From the IMG/VR virus record IMGVR_UViG_3300010938_000950, positions 62,001 through 126,000 of that record: 64,000 nucleotides of DNA. One strand, written 5' to 3'. The notes beneath the pieces are model-generated. The model ran no database searches. It was given only the letters and a program-made list of their open reading frames with translations, and was not told the origin of the DNA. This document shows, piece by piece, positions 29,547 through 55,894 of the stretch. Source of the DNA: a virus. How positions within the stretch are numbered: position 1 is the stretch's first letter; every line of letters begins with the position of its first letter. A program made the translations under genes and the position numbers.

Positions 29547-32084
29547 TCATGCGGTTAGACCGCCAGCTCCATTCCAAGTTAAGTAAATTCCATTTTGTAG
29601 ATGTAGCCAGCGGGCTGTACCGTTAACAATTCCTCCGCTTGTATATACTCCATTACCCGTTGTTCCATTAAGAGTGAAATGAGTATTATCTATAACTGTA
29701 ATTACAAAAGTGCCATTGGCAGCAGTGTTACCATTAACACCCGAAATAACAACTGTTTGACCAGTTGTTAAACTATTGGCTGCAGAAGTTGTAATTTGAA
29801 TAGGTGAAGTGTTGCTGGCGCCAGTTACCGTAAGTGTAGCAGTGTTTTCTGTACTTAGAGTAAAAGTACCAAAATTAGTTCTACCTTGTCTAATAAATGG
29901 AGCAGTACCCATTAGTCTCTGATTTAATCCATAGGCCGTAATTCCTGCGCTTGGATAAGGCAGTACTAAAGCAGGGTCAGTTGCTATACCTGCCCATATT
30001 TCCCAAGGTAATACCTCGGTGGTTCCGGTGAATGGACAATCTCCTGCGTTGGATGAATATACAGTTGATGTTCCAGAAACGCCATCAGCGTTGGCCCATC
30101 CTGCCAAGGCACACATTTCAGGAGCAAAATCTCTGTATGTAAATCCTACATTAAAATTTGCTCCCCATCTAGCCTGTATTCCGCCATAATCTCCGGTGTT
30201 ATTTCCACCGTATATAAATGGTCTATTTGAATTTGCAGGGGGCGGAGATGGTTCGTTATCTGGCAATCCAAACGTTACAAATCCGCTGGTACCACCACCT
30301 TGCGGTCTAGTATATAAAAATACTGCTTGTCCACTATCATCTCCTACAATGGTAGTACGCGGTGCAAGAGAGACGTTGGCTGTTCCAATTAACGTATTTG
30401 CGTACTGTGTTCCTAAGTTGCTGGTTAAATCTAAATATTGAGATATATGGGTGGTTGTTCCGCCAATAGAAAAATCACCAGCCGCACTACCTCCGTAGCC
30501 TACACTTATTGATGCATAAGCTGGACCACCATTGATATTCCATGGTTCACCTGCTACTCTAACTTGCCATCCACTGGAGTGCGGACTTTGAAGTATTATT
30601 CTACTATTTTGTGACACATCGCTTCCTCCAGTATAACCAATGCGAGTGACGGTGCCTCCACCCGTATAGTTTCCGTTACCAGAAGATCCGTTCAAAGTAA
30701 ATATACCAGATCCAATTCTAGTAATTGTCCATGTACCATTGGCGGCCGTATTACCGTTCACACCGGAAATTGTAACTCTTTGTCCCGTATCAAAATATGA
30801 AACAGCATTAACGCTAACGTTAATTTGAATAGGAGTAGTATTTGTTGCGCCAGTTATAGAAACACCAGTAACTCTATTATTGTCACCAAGCAACAAATAT
30901 TCTGACATTCTTGTTTCAGTTTCATATAGCCACCAACTCATACCGCTTTCAGGAGGAGGCGTATCAGTTGATCTATATTCAATAGTATAAGAATTAGTTG
31001 CAGTATTGGTAGCAGTTATTTTAAAAACACCTGAATTTTTGGTTGGATATAAATTACTTTTAAGAACTAATATTCTGCCAGTATCTCCAGTTGTAGGTGC
31101 TGTGCCGTTCACAACTGTTCTCGTAGCAGTAGGAATTTGTACCGCATAAACGGAGGGCGCGCCACCAAAATTTATACTAGCTCCCGTTCCAGATGCCACT
31201 AGTAAGCCTTGTGGTAAAATTGAACACGAATTAGCAACATAAGCTCCAGCTAATGTTGTCCAGAGTAGTCTCATTTGTGTTGAGCTAATAACTTCTACTT
31301 TACTTGGACCAAAATTTCCAAGGTTGCTGCTAATACCGTACATACCAGTTCCACTACCAGATTGAATAGCGGTATAATCTCCAGTATTCATTCCGTGAGG
31401 GAATTGAGTTGTGATAGTAACAGGGTTGCCAGTAGCGGTGACAATTCTATTTGGACCACAAGCAACACCACCAACGCCAGCAGACGAAACATTATTACCA
31501 GTGTTCATTGTGCCAGTTCCACCAGTACAACCTGTAAAACTAGTTCCAGTAGTACCAGTGTAAGTGACTGTTTGTACGCCTGCAGTTGTTATGACATAAA
31601 TTGTTCCAGAAGTCGGAAATCCCGCCGTAGAAACAACGTTAATTGTTGCCGTAGGCAATGCAACGTTATTGGAACCTGCAGCAATAGTTGTTGTAAAGCC
31701 AGAAGACATTGTGCCAGTTCCGCCTGTACAATTAGTAAAGGTAGTAGCGGTAGTTCCAGAATATTTAACTATCTGTACACCATCACTAGTAGTTACGTAA
31801 ATAGTTCCAGAGGCTGGAAATCCTGTAGTTGAAGTTACGTTAATAGTTGCTTGGGGTAAAATCTGACCGTTGGAACCAGCCGCAATCGATGTGTTTTGAG
31901 ATATTGTAAAAGATTGGTTATTAGAATTGTTTAAATCAAATCCGGTGTGTCCTACAACAGAGTATCCTAATATCTTATTCAAAAATACAGCAGTATTAAA
32001 TAAATAAGATACGTGTGCAAAACTTGAAGCGCTCGTGTATCCGCTGGTAGAAGCTGTGAAATCTCGTAGTATATGAACTGTCAT
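29547..32084 (-). CDS. Tail fibre/adhesin with inserted repeat modules (family A)
   Basis: An 845-residue fibre. The N-terminus 'MTVHILRDFTAS' and later 'SGMSWWLYETE', 'RIILQSPHSSGWQVRV' and C-terminal 'LHLQNGIYLTWNG' are shared with the proteins at 34036 and 36836. Near the N-terminus are two tandem copies of a ~65-residue module ('SNGQILPQATINV...FTNCTGGTG'). Two FCCH-like modules ('VTISGVNGNTAANGTW', 'VVISGVNGNTAANGTF') interrupt the scaffold. The second splits the otherwise continuous C-terminal motif (about 29612-29842). It is probably a trimeric receptor-binding protein. Confidence 0.75.
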   Translation of the reverse strand: MTVHILRDFTASTSGYTSASSFAHVSYLFNTAVFLNKILGYSVVGHTGFDLNNSNNQSFTISQNTSIAAGSNGQILPQATINVTSTTGFPASGTIYVTTSDGVQIVKYSGTTATTFTNCTGGTGTMSSGFTTTIAAGSNNVALPTATINVVSTAGFPTSGTIYVITTAGVQTVTYTGTTGTSFTGCTGGTGTMNTGNNVSSAGVGGVACGPNRIVTATGNPVTITTQFPHGMNTGDYTAIQSGSGTGMYGISSNLGNFGPSKVEVISSTQMRLLWTTLAGAYVANSCSILPQGLLVASGTGASINFGGAPSVYAVQIPTATRTVVNGTAPTTGDTGRILVLKSNLYPTKNSGVFKITATNTATNSYTIEYRSTDTPPPESGMSWWLYETETRMSEYLLLGDNNRVTGVSITGATNTTPIQINVSVNAVSYFDTGQRVTISGVNGNTAANGTWTITRIGSGIFTLNGSSGNGNYTGGGTVTRIGYTGGSDVSQNSRIILQSPHSSGWQVRVAGEPWNINGGPAYASISVGYGGSAAGDFSIGGTTTHISQYLDLTSNLGTQYANTLIGTANVSLAPRTTIVGDDSGQAVFLYTRPQGGGTSGFVTFGLPDNEPSPPPANSNRPFIYGGNNTGDYGGIQARWGANFNVGFTYRDFAPEMCALAGWANADGVSGTSTVYSSNAGDCPFTGTTEVLPWEIWAGIATDPALVLPYPSAGITAYGLNQRLMGTAPFIRQGRTNFGTFTLSTENTATLTVTGASNTSPIQITTSAANSLTTGQTVVISGVNGNTAANGTFVITVIDNTHFTLNGTTGNGVYTSGGIVNGTARWLHLQNGIYLTWNGAGGLTA

Positions 32085-34028
32085 TTAAGCTCCACTCGCA
32101 AGGAAATTGTATGGCAGTATTGCCCCATCCCATGGAAGACATATACCATTAACTAAGTGAATAAATTCACCACTATTGCCAATTAAGAAAAATGATGGCA
32201 ATCCTCCAAACGTAAGCCTAAATGGTCGCATTTTAGCTCTGGCAAATGAAAATTGTCCAGCAGTTGATGAAACTGACATTATGGCTTCTCCAGTCACAAC
32301 CTGTGCCAAACTTTTTTGAAATCCTAGTAATGAGTTTAAATTAAAACCCACAGTGTACGTAGGGCCTACAGTGGCATTAGCAGTATCACCAACTAAATTT
32401 CTACTAAGTAATTGGTGTGACCTGGTTATTCCATCAAACCCTGTCATTCCAAACGATGTACAAAAAGAATCAGTTCCAGTGCTGTTATTAAGAGCATTAC
32501 CTCCTACTAAAACTGCTATTAAATTTGGATCCTGAGTTTGTGAATATAATCTTAGAGGTGTGGTGGCCATAAAATAAAGTGCTGATGAACTATTTGTAGG
32601 AGATTTAACATGGGCAAAAATAAAATCAGTATCTGCAACTATAGATACAAACCCATTTGCACTAGCAGTTGTACCTGTAATACTACCAGTTCCGTTTGTT
32701 CTTTCGGTCATTGTGGCATTTGATCCAGAACCGGAAAATGCACTTCCATTCCAGCTACCATTTGGAGATCCAACTACTCCGAATAATCCGAAAGCATTTG
32801 CTGCACCTCTAAGTATAAATTGGAATTGTGATGGTACTGCACCAGGATTTATATTAGGGGCGCCAGTAAATGTACCAATAAAATAATTACCATTTGCTAT
32901 CGACAGTTGTGAAGCTGCCGTAACATCAATTACACGATAACTGAGAGAGGCTCTAGCAGTTAAATTATTCTTCAAAGTAGAGATATCAGTAGTTCCTCCA
33001 CTGAATGGTACAATCTTTACCTGGTCACTAGATGGTACTGCAATAATTCTATAAATGGAATCATCAGTACTAGGAGGATTAGTTGAAACTGATCCATTAG
33101 GCGATAGAGTGCCGGTTCCACCAGTGCAACCAGTAAATATCTGCCCAGTAACAGAATTGCCAGTTGTTAAAGTACCAGAACCACCTGAACATCCAGTAAA
33201 GCTCGTAGCTGTAATACCCGTATAAGTAACTATTTGTTGTACGTTTGAAGAGGTAGTGACATTAATAGTTCCAGATGTTGGGAAGCCTGTTGTAGAAGCT
33301 ACGTTGATAGTTGCTTGTGGCAATACTTGTCCGTTCGATGCGGCAGAAATTACGGTATTAATTATTCCAGTATAGTTAACAGTTTGTAGTCCACTACTGC
33401 TTAATATAAACAAAGTTCCGCTACTAGGAAATCCTACGGTAGATTGTACAGATATAGTGGCTTGTGGTAATGTCAAACCTGCGGATGCTGGGGCAATTCC
33501 ACTTCTAGGTCCAGCCAACCAAACAACTACGTGTTTTCCAATCATAGATTGAGAAAATGGTTGTGAAGAGGCGGCAGTTAGTGAGTCTCCAATTGCAGAA
33601 GTTACTCCATCATTTCCAACAGCAAGTACGGACGAGCCCTCAAAAAATCCAGTCGGACCACTTGTGGGTGATATTGGTATTCCACCGGGGACAGTGACTT
33701 GTCCACCACTCACATAGTTGGCGTTTCCTGTAGCGCCATTTAGAGCAAATTGTGTAGAATTAACAACAGTAACATTCCATCCACCATTAGCGGCGGTATT
33801 GCCCTGAACACCGTAGACTCCAACTAACTGGTTATTAGATAGTCCATGTGGAGTAGAGGTGGTAATTACGATCGGATTAGCATTGGATGCAGCCGTAACT
33901 GTAAGTATCGGTCTAGTACCATTTACACAATAGGACCAGAACTCGTAGCACAATTTCATAAAAATAGGTACATCCCTACCATTTGTGCCAGTTGTATATT
34001 GTAATCCTCTGAGAAATTTGATGGCCAT
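32085..34028 (-). CDS. Tail fibre/adhesin with nested repeat modules (family B)
   Basis: A 647-residue fibre related to the one at 38606: both begin with a 'FLRGL/FCRGL' block and 'YEFWSYCVNG'/'YEFWGYCVNG', and both end with an 'INGI-W-N/D-ILP' block. An FCCH-like module ('LVGVYGVQGNTAANGGW') sits near residue 50-110. One TINV-type module begins at 'LPQATISVQST', is broken after 'QTVNYTG' by a complete second module (33141-33362), then resumes at 'FTGCTGGTG'. AAGGAAA precedes the ATG. It is probably a host-binding fibre or its distal part. Confidence 0.75.
   Translation of the reverse strand: MAIKFLRGLQYTTGTNGRDVPIFMKLCYEFWSYCVNGTRPILTVTAASNANPIVITTSTPHGLSNNQLVGVYGVQGNTAANGGWNVTVVNSTQFALNGATGNANYVSGGQVTVPGGIPISPTSGPTGFFEGSSVLAVGNDGVTSAIGDSLTAASSQPFSQSMIGKHVVVWLAGPRSGIAPASAGLTLPQATISVQSTVGFPSSGTLFILSSSGLQTVNYTGIINTVISAASNGQVLPQATINVASTTGFPTSGTINVTTSSNVQQIVTYTGITATSFTGCSGGSGTLTTGNSVTGQIFTGCTGGTGTLSPNGSVSTNPPSTDDSIYRIIAVPSSDQVKIVPFSGGTTDISTLKNNLTARASLSYRVIDVTAASQLSIANGNYFIGTFTGAPNINPGAVPSQFQFILRGAANAFGLFGVVGSPNGSWNGSAFSGSGSNATMTERTNGTGSITGTTASANGFVSIVADTDFIFAHVKSPTNSSSALYFMATTPLRLYSQTQDPNLIAVLVGGNALNNSTGTDSFCTSFGMTGFDGITRSHQLLSRNLVGDTANATVGPTYTVGFNLNSLLGFQKSLAQVVTGEAIMSVSSTAGQFSFARAKMRPFRLTFGGLPSFFLIGNSGEFIHLVNGICLPWDGAILPYNFLASGA
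33141..33362 (-). repeat. Complete TINV module nested inside another module
   Basis: About 222 bp (74 codons) coding 'SNGQVLPQATINVAST...FTGCSGGSGTLTTGN', placed in frame between the 'VNYTG' strand and the 'FTGC' strand of a second module. The exact ends are uncertain by a few codons. Confidence 0.6.
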
Positions 34029-34035
34029 ATTTTCC

Positions 34036-36315
34036 TTAAGGTACTAGTGGGGGCCCGCCCCAAAAAATATACATTCCCCTTCGCATATGCTGAAAAGAAC
34101 GATTAGTATCGTGTGTTAACGTATATTCTCCAAAATTAGTTCTTCCTTCCCTTATATGCGGAATAGTTCCTATAAATCTTGCTTCTGTATTTGGAAAACC
34201 TACCCCACCTCCCCAATCGTTAACAGTGCCCCCTATCACATCTACAGATAATAATTCAGTTGCTCCTAACCAAGGATTATCTCCTGCGCTTCCATCAAAC
34301 ATAGGACTTCCGCCTTGCCCTACTCCGGAAACATACGTTAATAGAGATACTCCCGCTGATATTGGAACAGGGGTGGTAGTATTTTCATTTGCTTGCATAC
34401 TAACACCCTGGGAACGATTATTAATAGTAGTTGAAGTACCAAAAAGCCAACTACCATCATTTAAACTATTACCACTGCTTGATCCTAATCCACTTCCTAT
34501 ACAGTATAGTCGCGCTTCGTTATTCGCTGGAATTAGTGGCGGCTCAACTTCTGGCATACCAAATGATACATAAAATGATTTGGGATCGGTTGCATTTCCT
34601 GGCCTACGCCCAAACATTGTAACACCTAATCCATATCCATCATCTCCAATTATAGTATGTCTATATGAAATTGATGTTAGTGTACTAGTGTCTCCGCAAC
34701 CGGGAGCGCCACCAATATAAATGCTACTGTTACTATTATAATATAGTGGCGTATGTAAATGTCTACCAGCTACTGGAAAATCTCCGGCCGCATCACCACC
34801 AAATCCTGGTATGAAGGTAATTGGTGCACAGTTGCTTTGATCTGTATTTGTTTCATTGCAAATTCTAACCTGCCATCCAGTAGAGTTTGGGCTTTGTAAA
34901 ATTACACGTGGTGTAGTAGAATTACCATTGCCCCTGTACGACCCCGAAGGACTACTATTTACTGCTCCATTAGCTGGGGCATTAGCATCGCTGGCATATA
35001 AATACCAATTCATACTATCTGTAGGCTCAATTGGCGGCAAACTTGGAGAGTAGAAAACAGCTCCGCCAGTACTCATAACACCAGTACCGCCTGTACATCC
35101 TGTAAATGTAGTTGCCGTAATTCCAGTATATGATACTTGCTGTACGCCTGCTGCTGTGGTTACGAAGACAGTTCCAGATGGTGCAAATCCGGCACGGACA
35201 GCACCGCCAGTGGTCATTAATCCAGTACCGCCCGTACATCCTGTAAATGTAGTTGCGGTAGTTCCTGTATATGATACTGTTTGAGTGCCAGTGCTAGTGG
35301 TAACAAAAATAATACCAGTAGTAGGAAATCCAGTAGTTGAAACTACGTTAATAGTGCCTTGTGGTAATCTAACGTTATTGGATCCTGAAGCAATAGTTGT
35401 ACTTGCTGTATTTGTAGAAGCCACGTTAATGGTGGCCTGAGGTAAAGATTGTCCGTTAGAACCGGCGGCAATTGTGGTAGCTACTCCTGCTACAACCTGT
35501 GAACCACCAAGTATACTTCCGCTGCCTCCTGTACATCCTGTAAATGAGGTTGCAGTTGTACCGGTATAATTAACTGTTTGCCTGCCTGCTGGAGAGCATA
35601 TAAATATAGTTCCGCTCGTAGCAAATCCAGTAGTAGAAGTGACGTTAAGTGTAGCTGTAGGTAATGAGATACTAGCTATAACAGAGTTACCAGTAGACAT
35701 AGTGCCAGTACCTCCAGTACAACCTGTAAAAGTAGAGCCTGTAGTACCAGTATATGTAACTGTTTGTGTTCCAGCATTTGTAGCAACTAAAATGGTTCCA
35801 GATGTTGGGAAACCAGAAGTCGAGGCTACGTTAATGGTTCCTGTTGGTAAGGAAACGTTATTGGAAGCAGCGGCAATTGTGGTTGTACCACTAAGAAATG
35901 TACCAGTTCTATAGTTTATACGATAAGAGTTTGTGCTTGTATCATATCCATCAATAAGAAAACAACCAGAATTATATTGTGGATTAGTTGTGCTTCTTAA
36001 AACTAATAATCTGCCAACATCAACTTGACTAACTACTCTAGTGGCGACTGGAATAGAAACAAAGAACTCTTTTCCTGAACTTAAATTAATGCCAGCCCTA
36101 GTTCCTGCTGCGAAAGTTGGTGTGGCGGCTGTAGGAGTAGAGTCCGCTGTTGAAATTAATAAAGTACCAACTGAATTAATATTAAAATTAGTATCACCTA
36201 CATAAGTGTAAAGCAAAACTCTACGCAAAAAAATAGCCATTAAATAGGAAGGTATCCATTTCCTATTTGTACTAGTATCTTGTATTACGTAGTCTCTGAG
36301 TAAATGTCTTGCCAT
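34036..36315 (-). CDS. Tail fibre/adhesin with inserted and nested repeat modules (family A)
   Basis: A 759-residue paralogue of 36836: 'LLRDYVIQDTSTNRKW', 'IFLRRVLLYTYVGDTN', 'DSMNWYLYASD', 'RVILQSPNSTGWQVRI' and C-terminal 'MRRGMYIFWGGPPLVP' are shared. Between 'YRINYRTG' and 'IEPTDSMNWYLY' (continuous in the 29547 protein) are four copies of the FTGC-containing TINV module, one of them nested inside another (35191-35409). The remainder is a Gly/Asn-rich beta scaffold. AAGGTAA precedes the start. It is probably a receptor-binding fibre. Confidence 0.75.
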   Translation of the reverse strand: MARHLLRDYVIQDTSTNRKWIPSYLMAIFLRRVLLYTYVGDTNFNINSVGTLLISTADSTPTAATPTFAAGTRAGINLSSGKEFFVSIPVATRVVSQVDVGRLLVLRSTTNPQYNSGCFLIDGYDTSTNSYRINYRTGTFLSGTTTIAAASNNVSLPTGTINVASTSGFPTSGTILVATNAGTQTVTYTGTTGSTFTGCTGGTGTMSTGNSVIASISLPTATLNVTSTTGFATSGTIFICSPAGRQTVNYTGTTATSFTGCTGGSGSILGGSQVVAGVATTIAAGSNGQSLPQATINVASTNTASTTIASGSNNVRLPQGTINVVSTTGFPTTGIIFVTTSTGTQTVSYTGTTATTFTGCTGGTGLMTTGGAVRAGFAPSGTVFVTTAAGVQQVSYTGITATTFTGCTGGTGVMSTGGAVFYSPSLPPIEPTDSMNWYLYASDANAPANGAVNSSPSGSYRGNGNSTTPRVILQSPNSTGWQVRICNETNTDQSNCAPITFIPGFGGDAAGDFPVAGRHLHTPLYYNSNSSIYIGGAPGCGDTSTLTSISYRHTIIGDDGYGLGVTMFGRRPGNATDPKSFYVSFGMPEVEPPLIPANNEARLYCIGSGLGSSSGNSLNDGSWLFGTSTTINNRSQGVSMQANENTTTPVPISAGVSLLTYVSGVGQGGSPMFDGSAGDNPWLGATELLSVDVIGGTVNDWGGGVGFPNTEARFIGTIPHIREGRTNFGEYTLTHDTNRSFQHMRRGMYIFWGGPPLVP
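35191..35409 (-). repeat. 219-bp TINV module nested at the NVAST|GF site
   Basis: Exactly 73 codons, starting 'TASTTIASGSNNV' and ending 'MTTGGAVRA', inserted between 'INVASTN' and 'GFAPSG' of a host module of the SNGQ subtype. The unit at 41513-41731 has the same length and lies at the same site. Confidence 0.7.
35339..35367 (-). repeat. 29-bp exact inverted repeat, arm 1
   Basis: The 29 bases here are the exact reverse complement of 48856-48884. Both arms code the 'LPQGTINVVS' strand of a TINV module, on opposite strands about 13.5 kb apart. Confidence 0.85.
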
Positions 36316-36323
36316 ATTTTACC

Positions 36324-36839
36324 TTATTGAATCCATCGTCCAACTATTTTAATATCTATTAATGGATTTCCAGATGGTGGAGTGTAGAAAATTCCTAAAT
36401 CTACATTTGGTGGGCTGCTGTTTGGGTTAATCGGCAAGCTACCAGGAGTATTAAATAATTCTGGTCGTGGCACTATATTTTCTGCAATTACCCAAGTTTC
36501 ATACGAACTAGTATTTGGGTTGTATCCGGATACTTTATAGTAGATAGTTTGATCCTTAGGATGTGTCAAAATGGGGTTATTATCTACTTGTATAGATTGT
36601 GGCGCCAGAATTGGCCTGGTATCAAAATTAGTAGTAATTCCATTGTATACTTGATCTCCGGCAGATCCTATAATGTTGTTTACATTGACGGCATCATAGT
36701 TGCTAGCTAAACCACCATAATCTTGCAAAGATGATCCTCTCGCCAGATCAAAATCGGCACTGGCAAAAGTATTGGCTTGTCCACCAAAATTTTCACTAGA
36801 TCCAAAGTTGGTAATTGTTAAATCAAAAGCATAGCTCAT
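36324..36839 (-). CDS. Small tail-fibre-associated protein (paralogue of 29216)
   Basis: A 171-residue protein. The frame is open to 36896, but the ATG at 36839 overlaps the stop of the 36836 gene as ATGA and starts 'MSYAFDLTITNFG'; it is preferred. 'YYKVSGYNPNTSSYETWVIA' is shared with the 29216 protein. It probably forms the partner of the long fibre encoded just upstream. Function beyond that unknown. Confidence 0.65.
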   Translation of the reverse strand: MSYAFDLTITNFGSSENFGGQANTFASADFDLARGSSLQDYGGLASNYDAVNVNNIIGSAGDQVYNGITTNFDTRPILAPQSIQVDNNPILTHPKDQTIYYKVSGYNPNTSSYETWVIAENIVPRPELFNTPGSLPINPNSSPPNVDLGIFYTPPSGNPLIDIKIVGRWIQ

Positions 36840-38596
36840 GGTATTGTTTGTGGTCCATTCCAAGTAACGTAAACTCCTCGCTTTAAATGCATCCAACTAT
36901 GGTTGGCTTCGGTTGTTATCGAGAAGTTTCCAAAGTTTGATCTTCCTGCTCTTAAATGTGGTATTGTTCCTAGTATTCTGGGTTCTAGTGGCATTGAAGC
37001 TTCAATGCCTGCATTTCCATTCCAAGTGTTAAATGTACCAGCTATTAAATCTACAGAGAATAATTCTGTACTTAAACTCCATGGACTATCTGCTGCACTA
37101 CCATCAAATATTGGACTTCCAAATTGTCCAACACCGGATACATAAGTCCATAGGGACGGTGCACAACTACAAATAATTCCTCCTTGAGTTTGTGTTACTC
37201 CTTGCAGAAACGGGTTATGATTTGCATCACCAAAGCTACCAGCATAAATAATTCCAGGAGTCCAGGTAATATCATTTAGATTATCACCAAATCCGTTATT
37301 TCCTCCCGTGCTAAGACTGCTGCCTAGAACAAATAATCTTGCTACATTATTAACTGGTAATGGCAGTGGTTCATTTTCTGCTAAACCGAATGACGCAATA
37401 TAATTTTTTGGTCTTCCAGCATTGGATGGGTCTCGCCAGAAGCGGCTAAAAATAACTACACCCTGCCCAGTGTCGTCTCCAACTAGTGTTATTCTAAATT
37501 GCATCTGTTGATATTGTGATGGACTGTATGGAATACCGAATGATCCGGAATCGTCCCCAAATCCAGGAGCCATTCCTACATATTTAGTGGTGTTATTTGT
37601 GTTGTACCATAATGGACCATGCAGGTGCGGGCCTGCAACAGCAAAATCACCTGCTGAATTGCCGCCAAATCCTGGTATAGCTGTGATTAAAGGAACATTT
37701 CCATAATTACCATTGGTTTGAATATTTTGACTATAATCAGCAAAAGTCTCATGGCATAATCTTACTTGCCAACCCAATGAGTGTGGACTTTGTAAAATTA
37801 TACGCGGTGTAGTGGAGTTACCATAACCGCCATATGTACCATTGTTAACGCCCACCCAAGTACTATTTGGCGCACCTGATGTTGGAGTTAAAGTTTCAGC
37901 AGCATATAGATACCAGTTCATGCTATCGTATGGTTCAACAGGTGGATATCCCGTAGCCCCCATTGTTCTGTAGTCAATTATGTAACAGTTTGTTACTACA
38001 GTTCCTCCGCCAGCATATGCTCCATTACCCGTTGTTCCATTGAGCGTAAATTGCGTATTATTTAATACAGTAATGGTAAAAGTTCCATTAGCATTCGTGT
38101 TTCCAGTAACTCCCGAAATAGTTACTGTTTGTCCTGTAGTTAGGGCATGTGGTGCTGTAGTTGTTACCTGTATCGGGGAAACAGCATTGCCTGAGGTGGT
38201 AGACACACTATAGTTAAGCGCTTCAAAACCAGTAATTAAAAATATACCAGAATTGAATGTAGAGTTGGCTGTACTTCTTAATACCAGCAACCTGCCTACG
38301 TCAGAAAAACTAACAGTCCTTACTGAAGGAGGAACCCATACATAAAATTCTCTTCCGGTACCTTGATTAATACCAGCTTTAGTACCCACTGCGAAAGTTG
38401 GAGATCCTGTAGGCGTAGAGTCTGGAGTAGCAATTAACAAAGTTCCTACAGCGTTGATAGGATAGTTTGTATCACCAACATAACTATACAAAAGTATTCT
38501 TCTTAAAAAGATACTCATGAGATAGCCTGGTACCCACTGCCTACTAGCCGTAGTGATATTTTGAGTAACATAATCTCTAACTGTGTGTATAGCCAT
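36836..38596 (-). CDS. Tail fibre/adhesin, family A with one FCCH-like insertion
   Basis: A 586-residue fibre and the least interrupted member of family A. It has N-terminal 'HTVRDYVTQNITTASRQW', 'IFLRRILLYSYVGDTN', 'DSMNWYLYAAE', 'RIILQSPHSLGWQVRL' and C-terminal 'LKRGVYVTWNGPQTIP'. A single FCCH-like module ('VTISGVTGNTNANGTF' to 'GAYAGGGTV') lies between 'ALNY' and 'CYIIDYRTMG'. It contains no FTGC module. AAGGAATC precedes the start. It is the best reference for defining where modules were inserted in the relatives. Confidence 0.75.
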   Translation of the reverse strand: MAIHTVRDYVTQNITTASRQWVPGYLMSIFLRRILLYSYVGDTNYPINAVGTLLIATPDSTPTGSPTFAVGTKAGINQGTGREFYVWVPPSVRTVSFSDVGRLLVLRSTANSTFNSGIFLITGFEALNYSVSTTSGNAVSPIQVTTTAPHALTTGQTVTISGVTGNTNANGTFTITVLNNTQFTLNGTTGNGAYAGGGTVVTNCYIIDYRTMGATGYPPVEPYDSMNWYLYAAETLTPTSGAPNSTWVGVNNGTYGGYGNSTTPRIILQSPHSLGWQVRLCHETFADYSQNIQTNGNYGNVPLITAIPGFGGNSAGDFAVAGPHLHGPLWYNTNNTTKYVGMAPGFGDDSGSFGIPYSPSQYQQMQFRITLVGDDTGQGVVIFSRFWRDPSNAGRPKNYIASFGLAENEPLPLPVNNVARLFVLGSSLSTGGNNGFGDNLNDITWTPGIIYAGSFGDANHNPFLQGVTQTQGGIICSCAPSLWTYVSGVGQFGSPIFDGSAADSPWSLSTELFSVDLIAGTFNTWNGNAGIEASMPLEPRILGTIPHLRAGRSNFGNFSITTEANHSWMHLKRGVYVTWNGPQTIP

Positions 38597-38605
38597 ATCG
38601 ATTCC

Positions 38606-41600
38606 TTATATAATGTAGAACAAGCTAGATGGAAGTATTGTATTATCCCAAATAATGGCAATACCATTTTGAGTATTTAAGAATTGGCCAGTTGCTGTAC
38701 CAAATCTGTGATAGAGTGGCAAGGTAGTTCCTGTAAACTTTAATGTTCTTAATTTAACTCTACCCAAAGAATATTGTCCGGTTACTCCTGGTAGTGATAA
38801 TACACCATCTGAAGCTAGTACTGTACCTCTTGTAGTATTAAATGTTAATCTAATATCAGTTAAGTTAGACCCAAATGTTGGAGTACCATCTCCGCCTAGT
38901 GACTTAGCAAGCATTCTATAAGTTCTTATGGTGCCAGTTGTATCTTTCATAACGAATCCATTACCGATAGTTCCGCTGTTACCGCTAGTTCCGTCGCATC
39001 TAAATACTGAACCGTTAAATACTCCACCTCTACTTAATACTGCCACAGGATTTGTATCAGCGGCTTGAGTATAAAGTCTTATTGGAATTTCACAATGTAG
39101 ATACGAGGATGCATCACCACTGTTTACATCTTTGAAATGCATCCAGAAAAATGCAGGATCGGCAGCCATAGTCATAGCCATAGTGTTTGCTGGAATACCG
39201 TTGAAAATACCTCCACTTTGACTAGTAAACTGTGTTGTAGCATCTGTTTGAGGATCTCCTGTTACTGGGAAAGTAAGTCCATTCCAGTTGCCGCCTGGTG
39301 ATATAATGGTTCCAATAGTACCCGCAGTATCGTTGCCAAATAACTGTATTTGACTATTGGCTTGCCCTGGATTTATTCCAATGGATGAAGGATTGAACTG
39401 CATAACCATATAGTTACCGTTACCGCTACTGAATGTTTGAGCAAGACCAGCATCTACTATTCTGTAATTAATATTACTTCTTTGAGTAAATGACGGGTGC
39501 AAATTAGTTGGGTCTGGTGTTCCGCCAGTATTCAAATTAATTCTGATAGAATTTGGACTATTTACGGCTGTAATTATGTAAATACTATCTTCTGTAGTTC
39601 CAGAATTTGGCTTCCACATAATCAATAGCTTACCTACCATATTGCTAGTTGTAACAGTTTGAGTGCCGCCACTTGTCCATGAGCCGTTTGGAGTAGAGTT
39701 GTTTAATATAATACTATTACGATTGGCAATTGAGCCACCGCTGGTATAAGCACCACTAGCAATTGTACCATTTAGTGTTGCAACTCTATTACTAATTACT
39801 GTTGTTAATGCTGTAGTGTTAGCGTTTGGTAAACCATTAATACCAGATGTTATTACAGTTTGTCCAGTTAATAGTGTATGGAAATCAGATGTAGTAATGG
39901 TAATTGGTGACAGTATAGTATTACCAGTAGTCATAGCTCCGGTACCGCCAGAACATCCTGTAAATGTTGTGGCAGTAGTTCCTGTGTAGGATACAATTTG
40001 GTTTCCGGTACTGGTCATAATTGTAAATGAACCAGTTTGTGCAAAACTAATAAACACAGGATTACCTGTAGTCATAGTTCCGGTGCCGCCAGAACATCCT
40101 GTAAAAGAAGTGCCCGTGGTACCAGTATACGTTACAGGTTGATATCCGGTAGTTGTTAATACATATATGTAACCGCTAGTTGGGAAACCTGTAGTTGAAG
40201 CTACGTTAATAGTAGCTTGTGGCAGTACTTGTCCACTGGATGCGACTGCAATTGAAGTGTAATTGCTAGCTGGAGAGAAGGCTGTGAACACCGATCCGCC
40301 AGCAGAAGTGCTTCCCGTACCACCTGAGCATCCAGTTAGTGATGTGGCACTTACGCCAGTATAATTTATTAGTTGAGAACCGGCTGAGGTAGTAATGTAC
40401 AATGAACCGGCAGTTGGAAAATTAGTAAAAAATCCAGTGTTATTTACTGTGTTGCCAGTAAACATAGTTCCGAATCCGCCCAATGCACCAGTGAAGGAAG
40501 TGCCGGTTACACCAGTATAGGTAACTGTTTGATTGAATGGTCCGCCGCCAATTGGAATACCAATCAACAGAGTACCAGTTCCGCCCGTACATCCTGTAAA
40601 TGAAGTTGAAGTTAGTCCCGTATAAGAAACCGAAGTGGCCGCATAAACAACACCACCAGTTGACATGGTTCCACCACCACCAGAACATCCAGTGAAGGAA
40701 GTTCCTGTGGTACCCGTGTATGTGACTATCTGTGCACCAGAGCTTGTTGTTACATAAATAGTTCCAGAAGCCGCAAATCCTACTGTCGAGGCTACGTTAA
40801 TAGTGCCTTGTGGTAATGCCTGTCCGTTGGAGCCGGCAGCGATAGTTGTTTGAATAGAGTTGTCTGCTACACTGAGAGTTCCGCTAGTTGGAAATCCATT
40901 AGTAGTAGATACATTAATAGTTGATTGAGGTAATGATTGACCACTAGATCCTAGTGCAATACTAGTTACTACTGTAGTGGCAATATTTAATGTACCTGTC
41001 GTTGGAAATCCGGTAGTTGAAACTACGTTAATCGTACCGGTTGGCAATGCGATATTGTTAGATCCTGATGCAATGGTCGTACTTGCCGTTGCTGTGGCGG
41101 CTACGTTGATTGTAGCTGTTGGTAATGCTTGAATGCCAGTAGTGGTTGTGAAAGGTGCAGCAGTATTTGCATTAACAGTTGCCTGTGGCAAAGATGCTCC
41201 ATTCGATGGAAAACCAGTTGTGGTATTAAAGTATGTTGCATTGGAAATATTGTTAGTTGGGGTGGTAATTATCCAAGTTCCATTGGCAGTTGTATTTCCA
41301 GTGACGCCACTTACTACAACAGATCCTAAATTAGAATAAGAGTTCGCGGCCGTCATATTAACTGATATTGGTGCAGTTACTGCCCCACCAGTTGACATAG
41401 TGCCAGTACCACCAGAGCAACCAGTAAAGGTTGTTCCTGTAATACCGGTATAAGTAACTGTTTGTACACCACCGCTAGTCGTAACGTTAATTGTTCCACT
41501 GCTTGGGAATCCGATGGTGACAGTACCACCAGTTTGCATGGAACCACGTCCTAGAGTACATCCAGTAAAAGTAGTGGCCGTAATACCTGTGTACAGCACT

Positions 41601-42373
41601 TGTTGGATGCCTTCAGTAGTTTGTACATTTAAATATCCACCAGAAGGAAAACCAGTAGTGGATGCTACGTTGATAGTACCAGTAGGTAGTGAAACGTTGT
41701 TAGAAGAGGCTGCGATGGTTGTGCTAGCGGTTGTAGTAGAAGCAACGTTTATGGTAGCCTGAGGTAAAGATTGTCCGTTAGATCCCGCAGCAATAGTAGT
41801 TCTGTAATTAGAAACATTGTTAATTGTAAAGCTAGTAGCGGCACTTGTAAATGGATTGACATTGGTTGCACTGAAAACAGCATCCCCACTGACAGACGTA
41901 CTAACCTGAGCAGCAGTGTATCCATCATTTCCGATTGCTAAAACAGGGGTTCCTTCTGTAAAATTAACTGGCCATGCGAATGGGGTAGTATTAATGACAC
42001 CGCCGCCAGTATACGATCCATTTCCAGTTGATCCGTTTAAGCTAAATGTGGTTGTAGAAGTAACTGTAATTTGAAAAGTTCCGTTAGCGGCCAAATTTCC
42101 TAATACTCCAGAAATTGTAACTTGTTGTCCAGTAAATAGTGCGTGAGTTGTTGTAGTAGTAATAACGATTGGAGATACGCCAGCGCCTGTGGTATTTGAT
42201 ACGTTGTATGAAATGCTCATGGTGTTTGCAAATCCACCAGGCGTTTGCAAGCCGGTTCCACCATTAACGCAGTATCCCCAGAACTCATAGAGTACTTTTA
42301 AGAACTCGGAGGCTCTTCCAGTTTGGTTATAATTGTAAAATAGTCCTCGACAGAACCTTAGTGAAGTTGGCAT
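38606..42373 (-). CDS. Giant tail fibre/adhesin with at least eight TINV modules (family B)
   Basis: A 1255-residue paralogue of 32085 ('RFCRGLFYNY', 'VLYEFWGYCVNG', C-terminal 'NTQNGIAIIWDNTILP'). After an N-terminal FCCH-like module come about 650 residues of TINV modules with eight FTGC-type strands (one has FTGA and one LTGC). Several modules are interrupted by others, including a 219-bp one at 41513-41731 and a cascade of partial modules around 'TTVVTSIALGSSGQSLPQ'. A broken FCCH-like segment ('VVVSGVTGNTTANGTW') is also present. The C-terminal ~400 residues return to scaffold similar to 32085. GGAG precedes the start. Confidence 0.75.
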   Translation of the reverse strand: MPTSLRFCRGLFYNYNQTGRASEFLKVLYEFWGYCVNGGTGLQTPGGFANTMSISYNVSNTTGAGVSPIVITTTTTHALFTGQQVTISGVLGNLAANGTFQITVTSTTTFSLNGSTGNGSYTGGGVINTTPFAWPVNFTEGTPVLAIGNDGYTAAQVSTSVSGDAVFSATNVNPFTSAATSFTINNVSNYRTTIAAGSNGQSLPQATINVASTTTASTTIAASSNNVSLPTGTINVASTTGFPSGGYLNVQTTEGIQQVLYTGITATTFTGCTLGRGSMQTGGTVTIGFPSSGTINVTTSGGVQTVTYTGITGTTFTGCSGGTGTMSTGGAVTAPISVNMTAANSYSNLGSVVVSGVTGNTTANGTWIITTPTNNISNATYFNTTTGFPSNGASLPQATVNANTAAPFTTTTGIQALPTATINVAATATASTTIASGSNNIALPTGTINVVSTTGFPTTGTLNIATTVVTSIALGSSGQSLPQSTINVSTTNGFPTSGTLSVADNSIQTTIAAGSNGQALPQGTINVASTVGFAASGTIYVTTSSGAQIVTYTGTTGTSFTGCSGGGGTMSTGGVVYAATSVSYTGLTSTSFTGCTGGTGTLLIGIPIGGGPFNQTVTYTGVTGTSFTGALGGFGTMFTGNTVNNTGFFTNFPTAGSLYITTSAGSQLINYTGVSATSLTGCSGGTGSTSAGGSVFTAFSPASNYTSIAVASSGQVLPQATINVASTTGFPTSGYIYVLTTTGYQPVTYTGTTGTSFTGCSGGTGTMTTGNPVFISFAQTGSFTIMTSTGNQIVSYTGTTATTFTGCSGGTGAMTTGNTILSPITITTSDFHTLLTGQTVITSGINGLPNANTTALTTVISNRVATLNGTIASGAYTSGGSIANRNSIILNNSTPNGSWTSGGTQTVTTSNMVGKLLIMWKPNSGTTEDSIYIITAVNSPNSIRINLNTGGTPDPTNLHPSFTQRSNINYRIVDAGLAQTFSSGNGNYMVMQFNPSSIGINPGQANSQIQLFGNDTAGTIGTIISPGGNWNGLTFPVTGDPQTDATTQFTSQSGGIFNGIPANTMAMTMAADPAFFWMHFKDVNSGDASSYLHCEIPIRLYTQAADTNPVAVLSRGGVFNGSVFRCDGTSGNSGTIGNGFVMKDTTGTIRTYRMLAKSLGGDGTPTFGSNLTDIRLTFNTTRGTVLASDGVLSLPGVTGQYSLGRVKLRTLKFTGTTLPLYHRFGTATGQFLNTQNGIAIIWDNTILPSSLFYII
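41513..41731 (-). repeat. 219-bp TINV module nested at the NVAST|GF site (second case)
   Basis: 73 codons, 'TASTTIAASSNNV' to 'MQTGGTVTI', between 'INVASTT' and 'GFPSSG' of an SNGQ-type host module. Same length, same left end and same target position as 35191-35409, but clearly diverged in sequence. Confidence 0.7.
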
Positions 42374-42412
42374 TTATTCTCCGTTTAACCAAAATGTCGT
42401 ATTATTGCGTGT

Positions 42413-43372
42413 TTATGCGAACCAAGTGTCTAAGACCTCTGGAGTAGAATAAGGCCCTATACACGGGAAAGCTGGCGCATTTGCTAAAGAAATTTCTGTG
42501 TCTACCCAAACAACCGGAGTAGGAGTTGTACAGGAAGTATCATAAGCTCTTAATTTATAATATCTCACGGCGCTGGTAACTGTGATTGGTAAAACCCCAA
42601 CTTTGTACACTAATTTAAAATAATCCAGAGGTCTTGCAATATCCGCGACTCTAATATCTTGAATTAAAATATTTGGTTCTTCTTTATTGGCTGATCCTGT
42701 AGCTGTAATTGCACCAGTTCTCCAAAATCCAAAACCATTAACACCGTCGGTATACGATAAGGATGCTGCTGCTACAGAATTTAATTGTGTACTTCCAGAA
42801 TATCTAATACATTGAAATCCATTTAAATAGGCACGCAAATCTGTGCCATCGTGTGTTAATCCTATATGCGACCACTGCTGCAGGGGTATCGGAAAATCGG
42901 TAACTGTGAATGTAGCATTGGTACTCGAAGTTAAAGCAACTTGTGCTATCCAGTCTTGGCCACCGTTAGATGTAAGTGTAGAAATATTAATAGCTTGAAA
43001 GGGGCTCGTCCAACTTGAAGTAATTGTACTATCTCTATATTCTTTTCCAAATAATGTTGTATTATTTGTAGTAGTATAAGATTTTAAATATACCCAAGCC
43101 GACACAGTTAATGGCGGCGTAGGATTAATAGTTTTAGCGCCAGCCGCGTAATTTCTAGTGGCTGAGGCGCCGGTCGGAAAATTTCCTGTGCTAGGAAACT
43201 GCGCACAAGAGTCATCAAAAACGCCAGTTCCAGTCCTTACTATGGTATTAGTAATATTTAAATCTGTACTTACATCATTAGGTGAAGTGACGCCGGTATT
43301 TCTATACGGACCAGAACTTTCGTTAAGTCTCCACACTAAAATATCATGTTCGTCTGGTGTTACTCTACCCAT
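42413..43372 (-). CDS. LamG/concanavalin-like lectin-fold tail protein 1
   Basis: A 319-residue protein. The start 'DEHDILVWRLNESSGPY' and the strands 'LTVSAWVYLKSY', 'WSHIGLTHDGTDLRAYLNG' and 'IQDIRVADIARPLDYF' are the standard LamG/ConA-like jelly roll. The C-terminal 'VRYYKLRAYDT' is shared with the 43375 protein. It probably binds carbohydrate on the host surface. First of three tandem paralogues (42413, 43375, 44316). Confidence 0.8.
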   Translation of the reverse strand: MGRVTPDEHDILVWRLNESSGPYRNTGVTSPNDVSTDLNITNTIVRTGTGVFDDSCAQFPSTGNFPTGASATRNYAAGAKTINPTPPLTVSAWVYLKSYTTTNNTTLFGKEYRDSTITSSWTSPFQAINISTLTSNGGQDWIAQVALTSSTNATFTVTDFPIPLQQWSHIGLTHDGTDLRAYLNGFQCIRYSGSTQLNSVAAASLSYTDGVNGFGFWRTGAITATGSANKEEPNILIQDIRVADIARPLDYFKLVYKVGVLPITVTSAVRYYKLRAYDTSCTTPTPVVWVDTEISLANAPAFPCIGPYSTPEVLDTWFA

Positions 43373-43374
43373 GA

Positions 43375-44316
43375 TTAAAATCCTAACTTAGTCCAAGATT
43401 GCACTATTTCTATCGGCCCCAAACTACCACCACATGGAGGAGATGGTGCACCGTTGTAGTTTATTCCATTAGATACCCAATAAACTGGAGGAGAATTTGA
43501 ACAAGTTGTATCATATGCTCTTAATTTATAATATTGAGATAGTGGATTTGAACCTGTACCTGGGGATAACACTCCGTTTCTGTATACATTTTGAAAATAT
43601 GATTGTGGTCTAGCTACATTAGCAATTCTAATATCACATATTGAACATACTGGTTCTTCTGGATTTCCTGAGCCGGCTGGTATGGCACCTACGAACCATG
43701 GACCTGGAGTAGTGCCGTAGTTTATATTTCCGCTAGCTGTACCTGTAGCGACTATACTTCCATTAATATAGCCTATCTGAGTGGCACCATCATATGTTAG
43801 TCCAACATGTGTCCAATTATATAAAGAAATTGTGTTTTCAGCAGATACCGTACCTGCACCGCCAGATGCCGTAACAAAAAATAAGTCCCAGGCTGACGAT
43901 TGTGAGGTATATGTTCTATTTTGTAATCCCAATGCTCCAAATGTACTAGACCAGTTTCCGGTATTCATTTGTTTCATGAACGGATGCTGTGTAAATCCTG
44001 TAGTATTGTAGGCTCGCAAATAAATCCAAAAAGATATGGTAATAGGGGCTTGTAGCGTAAAATTATTAGCACCAGCAATAAAATTGCGAGGGCTGCTGCT
44101 ATTAGATCCTGTGAACTGTACACAACTGTTATTACCAGATGCAGCAAATAGACTCGGCTGTTGTAATAAGACTGTTCCTGATAACGTAGCTAAATCAGAA
44201 ACGGCATGTGAAGGGGCTGATGGAGAAGTAGAAGAATTTACAAACGGAGCTGCCGCTTCGTCTAATTTCCACACAACAAGATCATTATTATCTGGTTCTA
44301 TTCTAGTTCCTGACAT
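43375..44316 (-). CDS. LamG/concanavalin-like lectin-fold tail protein 2
   Basis: A 313-residue paralogue of 42413. It has 'DNNDLVVWKLDEAAAPF', 'ITISFWIYLRAYNTT', 'WTHVGLTYDGATQIGYING', 'ICDIRIANVARPQSYF' and the C-terminal 'SQYYKLRAYDTTC'. The carbohydrate-facing loops differ, so the binding target may differ. Its start overlaps the stop of the 44316 gene by one base. Confidence 0.8.
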   Translation of the reverse strand: MSGTRIEPDNNDLVVWKLDEAAAPFVNSSTSPSAPSHAVSDLATLSGTVLLQQPSLFAASGNNSCVQFTGSNSSSPRNFIAGANNFTLQAPITISFWIYLRAYNTTGFTQHPFMKQMNTGNWSSTFGALGLQNRTYTSQSSAWDLFFVTASGGAGTVSAENTISLYNWTHVGLTYDGATQIGYINGSIVATGTASGNINYGTTPGPWFVGAIPAGSGNPEEPVCSICDIRIANVARPQSYFQNVYRNGVLSPGTGSNPLSQYYKLRAYDTTCSNSPPVYWVSNGINYNGAPSPPCGGSLGPIEIVQSWTKLGF

Positions 44317-45038
44317 TATGGCACCGTTCCACCAAAGTATGCTTCAGCAAAATATGATTGAGGTCTTACTATATTTGCGAGTCTAACATCTTGCACAATT
44401 AAATTTCCACCATCTAATGAAGCGGTATCTGGAATAGTACCTACAAACCATTTACCAGGATTTCCACTATTACTTACAGCGCCACCACCTGGAACTAAAC
44501 TTCCAACTAATGTACCATTCAAATAAGCTCTCAGAGTGGTGCCGTCCCATGTTTCTCCTACATGAACCCACCTGCCTTGTGGTATTAAATAAGGAGAATT
44601 AATGGCTAACTCTCTTAGTGTACCACCCGTTGTTACGTAGGCTATCCATCTACCATCCGATGTGTTTCTAATATATAATCCACATGTGAGGAAGGGTGAA
44701 GACCATGATCCTGCTGAGTATTGTTTAGTAAAAATGGATCCGTAGCTGCTGGAATATCTTCTAACAAATACCCAAGCTGAAAGAGAGAAGTTAGCAGGTA
44801 CATCAACTCCAAATCCACCACCACTGCCATCATGATTTGAAGAGATATTTTGACCAGGAATATAAACTCCTTTGAAATCTGCGTCTATTTTGATGAGACC
44901 TGGAACTTCCGAAATTATACCACCATAATCCACCAGATCACCAGCAGAACCAGCAGTTCCTAAATTTTGACGATTTGGACCCGCTTCATTTAGTGGATAG
45001 ACTAAGATATCATTTGCATCTGGTTGTAATCTAGCCAT
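44316..45038 (-). CDS. LamG/concanavalin-like lectin-fold tail protein 3 (no C-terminal tail)
   Basis: A 240-residue third copy: 'DANDILVYPLNEAGPN', 'FSLSAWVFVRRYS', 'WVHVGETWDGTTLRAYLNG', 'VQDVRLANIVRPQSYF'. It ends soon after the fold and lacks the 'YYKLRAYDT' extension of the other two. GAGG lies before the ATG. A carbohydrate-binding role is inferred from the fold. Confidence 0.78.
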   Translation of the reverse strand: MARLQPDANDILVYPLNEAGPNRQNLGTAGSAGDLVDYGGIISEVPGLIKIDADFKGVYIPGQNISSNHDGSGGGFGVDVPANFSLSAWVFVRRYSSSYGSIFTKQYSAGSWSSPFLTCGLYIRNTSDGRWIAYVTTGGTLRELAINSPYLIPQGRWVHVGETWDGTTLRAYLNGTLVGSLVPGGGAVSNSGNPGKWFVGTIPDTASLDGGNLIVQDVRLANIVRPQSYFAEAYFGGTVP

Positions 45039-45045
45039 TCATGCC

Positions 45046-46428
45046 TCACGAGTATACTATTGTAAGTCGCGCATTATTACATATTACTCGGTCTGTAACT
45101 GCTCCACTAGTTTTCCAAATTTGAACTTCATATCTTGTTACTGCATCACTCCTAATTGTTCCTGGAGTTGTTCCAACGGTGAGTGGAAGCGATGTATATT
45201 CTGTTGTCACAGTATTGTTGAACTGGAATAAAGTATTTGTAATTGGTACATTATGAGTAGTATCAAATAATCTACAATATCCGTCAACACCAGCCGCTGA
45301 TACTTCTAGACTGGCCTTAAAGGTTATACTTCTAGTTCTTCCACTGTTATCAGTTAACAGCGCTGGATAAAGAGTAATATCTAACTCTCTTCCTCCGGTA
45401 CCTGCTGGTGTAGAGAACCCATTCATTTCCGTACCCGCAACAAAATTGATATCGGATGGCATAGCTAAGGCTAGAAGGGTAGTAATTAAAACAGGCGGGC
45501 TATAAGTGATGTTTATTCTTGCGTTTCTACAAATAACCTGATCATTTACTCCACCACCAGTGATATAAATCTGTACTTCATATTGAGCAACCATATCAGT
45601 TCGCATTAATCCGGCAGTTATTCCTGAATTTATTTCAGCAGATAATTCTACCGAAGTTAGACTGCTGGTAGACAGGGTGCTGCTAGCAATGATTGCATTA
45701 TTTGTAACATCTTTAATTCTTACGAATCCAGTAGCTGCAGCATTAGTTACCTCTAAGTCAGCAATGAATTTCATTGTTCTGGTACGACCATCCAGTGTAG
45801 TTGAAGGATACGGAGACATATCTACGGCACGTGCACCAACTCTAAATGGAGAAGATGAGTTGCTGTATCCATCGCCGCCAACAAATGTGATATCAACCGG
45901 CAACAAAGTAACTGTTGGTAGAATATTTAAAGTTACTGATTGTGTAACGGGTTTCCATATATACCCGTCCCAGGTAAGTACTTGATTTGTTGTAGGAGAT
46001 TGCGTAGAAACTGGCCTTCCCTGTAACCCGGTAACGTAAGGTAAAGCATGTGTATTGCCTAAATCTTGAGCTAATTGAATAGAATTAGTTGGTTCCCAAA
46101 CAATGCCATTCCAGCCCACAACTTGACCTGGTGAAGGGGCAGCACTGGAAAGTGGACGATTTTGTAATCCAATAACTAATGGATGAGAAGGTACTCCTCC
46201 CAAGTCTCCAGCAATTGTAACAACTTGCTGTGTGATAAGAGTTTCTATATTATCTAATCTGGCTCTAACAGTAGCAAAAGTACCACTTGGTTTAGCTCCT
46301 AATTCATTTTCAATTGCAATAATGGCATTTCTTAGTCGATTGACCGTATCTCCGCCAATAGGGGATTGATTATCTACCACAAGAGGTAAAGTAACATTAT
46401 TGTCTATTTGTGCAGGATAATTAGTCAT
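45046..46428 (-). CDS. Tail fibre protein with shared N-terminal attachment domain
   Basis: A 460-residue fibre. The N-terminal ~65 residues ('NYPAQIDNNVTLPLV', 'AIIAIENELGAKPSGTFATV') match the divergent fibre at 46534 ('NYPFSFDNNITLPGV', 'AVFAIETELGITPSGIYPDV'), which suggests the same virion docking site. Two 'DLG...VIGLQ/VTGLQ-RP-S' repeats follow. The C-terminus holds two copies of a ~125-residue beta domain (each with 'I-F-G--GYS/NGF' and a 'GRTR(T/S)M/I-F' strand). It is first in the minus-strand fibre run, facing the 46429-46533 control region. Confidence 0.78.
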   Translation of the reverse strand: MTNYPAQIDNNVTLPLVVDNQSPIGGDTVNRLRNAIIAIENELGAKPSGTFATVRARLDNIETLITQQVVTIAGDLGGVPSHPLVIGLQNRPLSSAAPSPGQVVGWNGIVWEPTNSIQLAQDLGNTHALPYVTGLQGRPVSTQSPTTNQVLTWDGYIWKPVTQSVTLNILPTVTLLPVDITFVGGDGYSNSSSPFRVGARAVDMSPYPSTTLDGRTRTMKFIADLEVTNAAATGFVRIKDVTNNAIIASSTLSTSSLTSVELSAEINSGITAGLMRTDMVAQYEVQIYITGGGVNDQVICRNARINITYSPPVLITTLLALAMPSDINFVAGTEMNGFSTPAGTGGRELDITLYPALLTDNSGRTRSITFKASLEVSAAGVDGYCRLFDTTHNVPITNTLFQFNNTVTTEYTSLPLTVGTTPGTIRSDAVTRYEVQIWKTSGAVTDRVICNNARLTIVYS

Positions 46429-54688: not shown

Positions 54689-55894
54689 ATGGCTTATAAT
54701 GTAACAGTTGTTGGACAATCCAGTTTAGATGCTTTTGGAAGAAGTAGGGTTTCTAATCCAACCACCATTTTCGATAGCAAACAATTGTTTGATGGAAGAA
54801 CCATATTCTGGTCAACTTCTACGGCGACTGGTGCATCGATTACTTTTGATGGTTATAGGGCATCTAGTACTTTATCCGTAACCAGCTCTGGTGGTTCCGA
54901 AGCTATCAAACAAACAAAAAGACGCTTTAATTACAGCCCTGGCAAATCTTTGCTTATCATGAACACATTTGTGATGGGCACATCTGCTTCTGGTACACGA
55001 AAAAGAGTTGGTTATTTTGATGCCAACAACGGAATTTTCTTTCAAGACAACGGTGGTACTAAATCTATGGTTCTGAGAAGCAGTGTGTCTGGCAGTCCTA
55101 GTGATACGATTGTTAACCAGGCAAACTGGAATATTGACAAGATGGATGGCACGGGAAGCAGCGGAATTACTCTTGATATTACCAAGGCTCAAATTCTATT
55201 TATTGATCTAGAATGGCTAGGAGTTGGCGCTGTAAGAGTAGGCTTTGTAATTAATGGGCTAGTTCACTATGCTCACCAATTTTTAACTGCCAACGTTGGC
55301 ACCTCCGTGTATATGTCTTCCCCTAATTTGCCAATTAGATATGAGATTACAAATACAGGTGCCGGTGGTGCAAGTTCATTAGAACAAATTTGTAGTACTG
55401 TAGTTGTAGAAGGAAATACGCAATCAGAAGGTATGCTATTATCTGCTGATAGAGGAGCTACCGCACTGGCCTCTGTTGATAATGCTGCCCTATATCCTCT
55501 AGTGTCCATAAGATTAGATAACACTAAACCTGGCGCAACCATTACTCCAGCACAATTAAGTGTATTGGCAACTACAGCGGGCGTAGATTTTAAGTGGGCT
55601 TTAGTACTCAATCCTACTATTGGTGGGTCTGATGCCGCATCCTGGACTTCTATTCCTAACAGTGCAGTGCAGTATGATGTTAGTAGAACAATCACTAATA
55701 CAGTAACAGGTGGTACTGTCATCGCATCGGGGTATGGTAACGATGCTGCAGCCATCACAGCTAACTTTAGTACCGTACTTACATTAGGATTAAGTATAGC
55801 GGGCGTATCTGATCAATTCGTGCTGGCCGTACAGAAAATTGGAGCGGGTACTGATTCCTTCGTGGGAGCTATATCCTGGCGCGAGTTTGAATAA
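54689..55894 (+). CDS. Phage structural protein (fibre/baseplate-associated), 'DAFGRSRVS' family
   Basis: A 401-residue beta-rich protein. The start 'QSSLDAFGRSRVSNPTTIFD' and 'YSPGKSLLIMNTFVMG' are the kind of sequence found in a conserved structural family of large and marine phages, whose exact place in the virion I do not know. There are no repeat modules. It is last in the plus-strand fibre run, and its stop abuts the stop of the convergent DHFR gene. Confidence 0.65.
   Translation: MAYNVTVVGQSSLDAFGRSRVSNPTTIFDSKQLFDGRTIFWSTSTATGASITFDGYRASSTLSVTSSGGSEAIKQTKRRFNYSPGKSLLIMNTFVMGTSASGTRKRVGYFDANNGIFFQDNGGTKSMVLRSSVSGSPSDTIVNQANWNIDKMDGTGSSGITLDITKAQILFIDLEWLGVGAVRVGFVINGLVHYAHQFLTANVGTSVYMSSPNLPIRYEITNTGAGGASSLEQICSTVVVEGNTQSEGMLLSADRGATALASVDNAALYPLVSIRLDNTKPGATITPAQLSVLATTAGVDFKWALVLNPTIGGSDAASWTSIPNSAVQYDVSRTITNTVTGGTVIASGYGNDAAAITANFSTVLTLGLSIAGVSDQFVLAVQKIGAGTDSFVGAISWREFE

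Follow-up and report, generated by a model that had tools for sequence, protein, structure and literature searches.

We consider it likely that a small module, T, has spread in a cluster of phage genes by recursive in-frame insertion, with whole copies flanked by short linkers entering loops of virion domains and turns of T itself and of a second module, F. The evidence lies in complementary halves, the bracket order of the fragments, relatives with empty sites, purifying selection, and conservation of the nests across separate assemblies. The window (the whole stretch of 64,000 nucleotides analysed) spans bases 62001-126000 of a virus record that is 209,766 bases long. Its genes at 29547-46428 all lie on the minus strand, and some of them bear copies of T, a module of ∼68 residues (consensus TTIAAGSNGVSLPQATINVASTTGFPTSGTIFVTTSAGVQTVTYTGTTATTFTGCTGGTGTMSTGNAV), and of F, an FCCH-like module (Pfam PF16190). 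The nests are found in the proteins W_32085 (32085-34028(-)), W_34036 (34036-36315(-)) and W_38606 (38606-42373(-), 1255 amino acids).

F modules matched E1_FCCH PF16190 with E values down to 1.2e-15. F-bearing whole proteins scored 57.7, 37.9, 40 and 35.1 bits, all above the cutoff of 29.5, and the W_32085 protein scored 25.4 bits, under this curated cutoff. A single T module did not match PF16190; its sole Pfam match was to Big_1 (E 0.043), under the cutoff. It also gave weak matches (E 7e-5 to 0.03) to stretches of PHROG 2885 and 708, which are baseplate wedge subunits, and of PHROG 4406 and 9689, which are virion structural proteins, suggesting that T-like modules are present in known tail and head proteins. 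The window further encodes, at 54689-55894(+), a homologue of a Synechococcus cyanophage virion structural protein (43-47% identity). These stretches and this homologue point to virion parts, and the T-bearing proteins are probably tail- or virion-like. When the phages collection of known phage genomes was searched, neither a relative of the 1255-amino acid protein nor a match to the T consensus was found.

Other features of the locus were recorded. The host proteins at 29547-38596(-) resemble a paralogous family, starting with MxxHLLRDY... or ...YEFWGYCVNG and ending with W(N/D/G)GxxxxP, with T or F inserts placed differently among their loops. Adjoining the module-bearing genes are three similar-looking proteins in a row (42413-45038(-)); the one that was tested matches the LamG/ConA-like lectin family. 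The 982-amino acid protein at 46534-49482(+) has NGxxNxASG repeats like those of YadA-type beta-roll heads (Pfam LbR_Ice_bind, 4e-7) and, close to the C-terminus, one T module that is not nested.

Split modules were traced by hmmsearch with one HMM of T and one of F. Seven T modules and one F module in the window are split, and every one is completed downstream within the same gene by a fragment with complementary model coordinates (Table 1). The fragments run 1-23, complete unit, 23-68 in both W_34036 and W_38606; 3-52, complete, 47-68 in W_32085; and 1-36, 1-36, complete, 40-65, 40-68 in the second array of W_38606, where F is divided into 1-48 and 46-66. The acceptor points are T positions ∼23, ∼36-39 and ∼48 (INVAST / GFPTSG, GTIFVTTS / GVQTVTYTG and VTYTG / FTGCTGG, respectively) and F position ∼47 (between TITV and TFTLNG), all of them between predicted strands.

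Table 1. Coordinates of intact and split modules in the three nested proteins, numbered along the window
Feature	Position	Strand	Evidence
Outer T N-part (model 1-23), W_34036	35410..35478	-	hmmsearch
Inserted 73-codon unit (TAS linker + complete T + 2-aa linker), W_34036	35191..35409	-	hmmsearch 1-68, 104 bits; junction codons
Outer T C-part (model 23-68), W_34036	35056..35190	-	hmmsearch; rejoined outer 109.8 bits, one 1-68 hit
Two tandem un-nested T modules, upstream in W_34036	35494..35883	-	hmmsearch
Outer T N-part, W_38606	41732..41800	-	hmmsearch
Inserted 73-codon unit, complete T with TAS linker, W_38606	41513..41731	-	hmmsearch; junction codons
Outer T C-part (23-68), W_38606	41378..41512	-	hmmsearch; rejoined 112.8 bits
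Outer T, positions 3-48, W_32085	33363..33497	-	hmmsearch; un-nested orthologue in L011_9709
Inserted 74-codon unit, complete T at site ∼48, W_32085	33141..33362	-	hmmsearch
Outer T, positions 48-68, W_32085	33087..33140	-	hmmsearch; rejoined 82.5 bits
F N-part (model 1-47/48), opening of level 1, W_38606	41240..41377	-	hmmsearch, F residues 328-378 model 1-48
Level 2 T N-part, degenerate, position ∼1-22	41159..41224	-	PSSM 17.7 (null maximum 4.2)
Level 3 T N-part (GIQALPTATINVAAT)	41093..41158	-	PSSM 20.3 (null maximum 4.2)
Level 4 T N-part (model 1-36), opening within level 3 at site 23	40973..41080	-	hmmsearch
Level 5 T N-part (model 1-36), opening within level 4 at site 36	40859..40966	-	hmmsearch
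Level 6 T, complete, inserted within level 5 at site 36	40646..40849	-	hmmsearch
Level 5 T C-part (model 40-65)	40556..40642	-	hmmsearch; rejoined 82.0 bits
Level 4 T C-part (model 40-68)	40445..40537	-	hmmsearch; rejoined 84.0 bits
Level 3 T C-part (model 18/23-68)	40289..40429	-	hmmsearch; rejoined 70.4 bits
Complete T, second insert within level 2	40055..40258	-	hmmsearch
Level 2 T C-part (model 23-68)	39914..40051	-	hmmsearch; rejoined 77.4 bits
Complete F within split F	39728..39913	-	hmmsearch
F C-part (model 46-66), closing of level 1	39656..39724	-	hmmsearch; also in L010 and L017

As had been predicted, the two 219-bp units are in frame and exactly 73 codons long, comprising residues 303-375 of W_34036 (TASTTIASGSNNV...GGAVRA) and 215-287 of W_38606 (TASTTIAASSNNV...GGTVTI). 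Both start with TASTTIA, sit between INVAST and GF of the host module, and contain a complete 1-68 module; fragments 1-23 and 23-68 of one outer module lie on either side of the unit. The third nest, in W_32085, does use another point, T being split at ∼48 by 74 codons. The proposed rule that an SNN unit is inserted into an SNGQ host holds for both 73-codon nests of the window, and fails in orthologues and in other nests: the inner module of W_32085 is SNGQ, and that of L010 is SNA.

That the outer halves belong to one module was examined independently with an HMM for which 50 un-nested modules were taken from other viruses. Rejoined outer modules gave single module-spanning hits in 13 of 14 cases, against 0 of 12 for wrong-type joins, with join points chosen by hand under the guidance of HMM coordinates, which limits the test. 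The mean score of the 14 rejoined modules was 83.4 bits, compared with 99.7 for contiguous modules.

The two 73-codon nests could have arisen as one array, formed once and then copied to a second gene. Their outer N-parts are identical in protein (22/22) and are the best DNA pair of 105, and the TAS linker is common to both, so part of the history of the two nests may be shared. The original prediction had named full-length homology including the flanks, and paired relationships of inner and outer modules, as the marks of such a duplication. However, the flanks differ, and paired relationships were not seen: the similarity of the two inner modules is no more than average (rank 40 of 171 pairs), and among outer C-parts the pair comes at rank 26 of 66. 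Copying of a single array also leaves the nests at sites 36 and 48, and those in unrelated viruses, without explanation, and we regard it as quite unlikely.

Nests might also form without any insertion, if a tandem array lost a C-part (N1 N2C2) and the neighbouring C-part was then duplicated (N1 N2 C2 C2'). The W_34036 nest fits this scheme, since its outer and inner C-parts rank second in similarity among the 66 C-part pairs in the window (DNA 0.748), and this nest may have been affected by conversion or by partial duplication. The site-23 nest of W_38606 shows no such likeness (rank 46 of 66), site-48 nests have relatives in which the outer module is intact before insertion, and for the deep nests, with their mirror order, numerous deletions and duplications would have to be coordinated. 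We regard tandem loss and duplication as unlikely. The W_34036 C-parts (35057-35331) share 75% of 134 DNA bases, a high value for the family.

Further nesting in the W_38606 protein had been described as partial, which understates it. The whole protein parses as F, T(T), F(T(T(T(T(T)))T)F), and its deep array reads as balanced brackets of six levels (F>T>T>T>T>T), from which two side branches arise. The T modules opened at 23, 23, 36 and 36 are closed at 36, 36, 23 and 23, the mirror order that nesting requires. A stack parse of raw HMM hits left joins open in W_38606, because the N-parts of levels 2 and 3 were weak or missing; this was solved with segment PSSMs, scored against composition-matched shuffles. 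These two N-parts are degenerate, yet even they, the weakest openers, score far above the null maximum (Table 1). A stack (pushdown) parser then gave depth 6, and random orders of the W_38606 fragments yielded a valid nesting at any depth in only 4,899 of 2,000,000 cases, two segments missed by the PSSM tokens (Y at 580-587 and M at 775-788) having been added by hand before the parse. Both segments fall within HMM hits, and Y is also found in L009 and L010. Assuming bracket order, the two halves opened at 36 and the two opened at 23 would pair as listed in Table 1, and we infer that halves pair physically as brackets and not by swapping.

AlphaFold gave a mean pLDDT of 30.5 for the deep nest (3 sequences) and 28.6 for the W_34036 protein (4 sequences). 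The models were unusable and were discarded; we therefore infer the fold of T from its sequence, as probably all-beta, a short antiparallel meander with adjacent termini. A profile search of the PDB returned designed Pizza NHL propellers, with E values inflated by the repeated blades of these targets, and the hits were kept only as a lead to a four-stranded meander. The low pLDDT values, and the T- and G-rich, low-complexity sequence of the arrays, would also suit a linear fibre or solenoid of half-module repeats, whose bracket pattern would be incidental, every module being unsplit once folded. Against this, the halves are balanced in number and complementary in type, and none of the relatives examined showed an orphan N-part; T is mostly a complete unit, 82 of 99 module proteins (79 further loci) having complete modules only; and rejoined halves resemble intact modules. 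Such a fibre has, in our judgement, little probability.

Every nest is kept in the orthologues of L009 and L010 (86 and about 68% identity), phage contigs of very large size (359 and 481 kb), and L017 keeps those nests that its contig reaches. An assembly artefact was ruled out, because these independent assemblies carry the same nests at such identities. The nests are under strong purifying selection: dN/dS is 0.02-0.12, alike for outer halves, inner units and the host part, and synonymous sites are near saturation, which together indicate that the nested architecture is old and maintained.

The search for empty sites in other phages, which the original prediction had proposed, succeeded for site 48 and for host loops; among the relatives, no empty-site version of the site-23 nests was found. 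At site 48, T is intact in L011_9709 and contains another T in W_32085, L009, L010 and L017; in a tree, the intact module groups with the rejoined outer modules (support 90/81). L011_6853 has inserts at site 36 only, and L012_12410 and L037_4506 have them at site 48 as well. The whole ∼720-residue array of W_38606 is lacking between the same host strands in L011_2248 and L012_7695. L087_3552 has two T inserts, one of them itself nested, and both are missing from an L115 protein of 65% identity; this pair (L087:3552-5642 and L115:3992-5422), with clean presence and absence of T in two loops, appears well suited for reading junctions. L087 and L026 represent independent nests in unrelated viruses. 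The L026 nest, on an unrelated contig, has depth 3 by eye and by HMM fragments, its middle module being divergent and failing the full-length test.

Repeated nesting at one codon site had suggested a specific insertion route, and a dedicated site-specific element or recombinase could be imagined to move T there. Four nests in the window do open near T position 23, three of them with similar linkers. However, the insertions use one F site and no fewer than three T sites, as well as several host loops that are unrelated, in unrelated viruses, and neither target duplications nor inverted repeats were found at the insert junctions. Site-specific insertion also predicted separate clades of inner and outer modules; a tree, poorly resolved with 68 columns for 63 rows, did not separate them (12 changes for each label), and the inner modules do not form a clade. 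We consider such an element extremely improbable. Given the saturated synonymous sites, old insertion scars could have been erased, and the junctions are too old to read.

For recursive insertion of T, the following mechanism can be proposed: i) whole T copies with short Thr/Ala/Ser linkers would insert in frame into loops of host virion domains, and likewise at the three T turns and the F turn; ii) each turn of an antiparallel meander would present two adjacent chain ends, so that a domain with adjacent termini could be accepted with the host sheet unbroken; and iii) since the insert would be a complete domain at a chain turn, the split host could still close around it, and insertion could be repeated recursively. 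In the simplest view, the DNA route would be rare illegitimate or microhomology recombination filtered by selection, inserts being retained only where the fold tolerates them and the extra surface is useful. Their role may be the growth and variation of surface-exposed fibre or decoration parts of the virion. A bolder version, by which the modules of several phage lineages grow virion proteins by unlimited recursive self-insertion, as in a context-free grammar, through an active copying route that targets beta-turns, seems to us doubtful.

Empty and filled versions of one site in related phages make the order, the sites and the route by which domains enter loops of other domains directly accessible to study. 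The nests would also provide structure predictors and designers with a natural set of deeply interrupted domains, and repeat finders that treat such genes as tandem arrays will miss the nested architecture.

Domain insertion is common, but deep self-nesting is not. In a classical A1-B-A2 arrangement one domain interrupts another; here the insert is complete, both host halves are homologous to one domain, and uninterrupted homologues exist (L011_9709, L011_6853 and L115). E1_FCCH PF16190 is matched by F and not by T, and in the deep nest F itself is split. In PHROG 2885, 708, 4406 and 9689 the T-like stretch lies within long profiles, and the search output mentions no nesting. The literature searched, from which most subscription journals are missing, yielded no report of nested modules in phage proteins. 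Among 48,551 insertion events, a 2026 survey singles out a six-level structure in cyanobacterial RNA polymerase (PMC13114784), whose beta' Si3 region contains HABAS domains within HABAS domains, sometimes with swapped strands; this nesting is reported to be ancient and its mechanism unclear (PMC11515920). Si3 is the closest precedent, with a small domain (beta in Si3, probably so in T) likewise inserted within copies of itself to six levels, although the sequence profile of T found no HABAS match (barrel-sandwich hybrid, CATH 2.40.50.100) in the PDB. Whereas Si3 is a single, ancient insertion region in a cellular enzyme and has been observed in structures, the T and F nests occur in several genes and viruses, are seen at the sequence level, involve apparently other domain families, and have empty and filled sites among relatives. 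The phage nests look like the equivalent, in viruses, of the most deeply nested protein architecture described to date.
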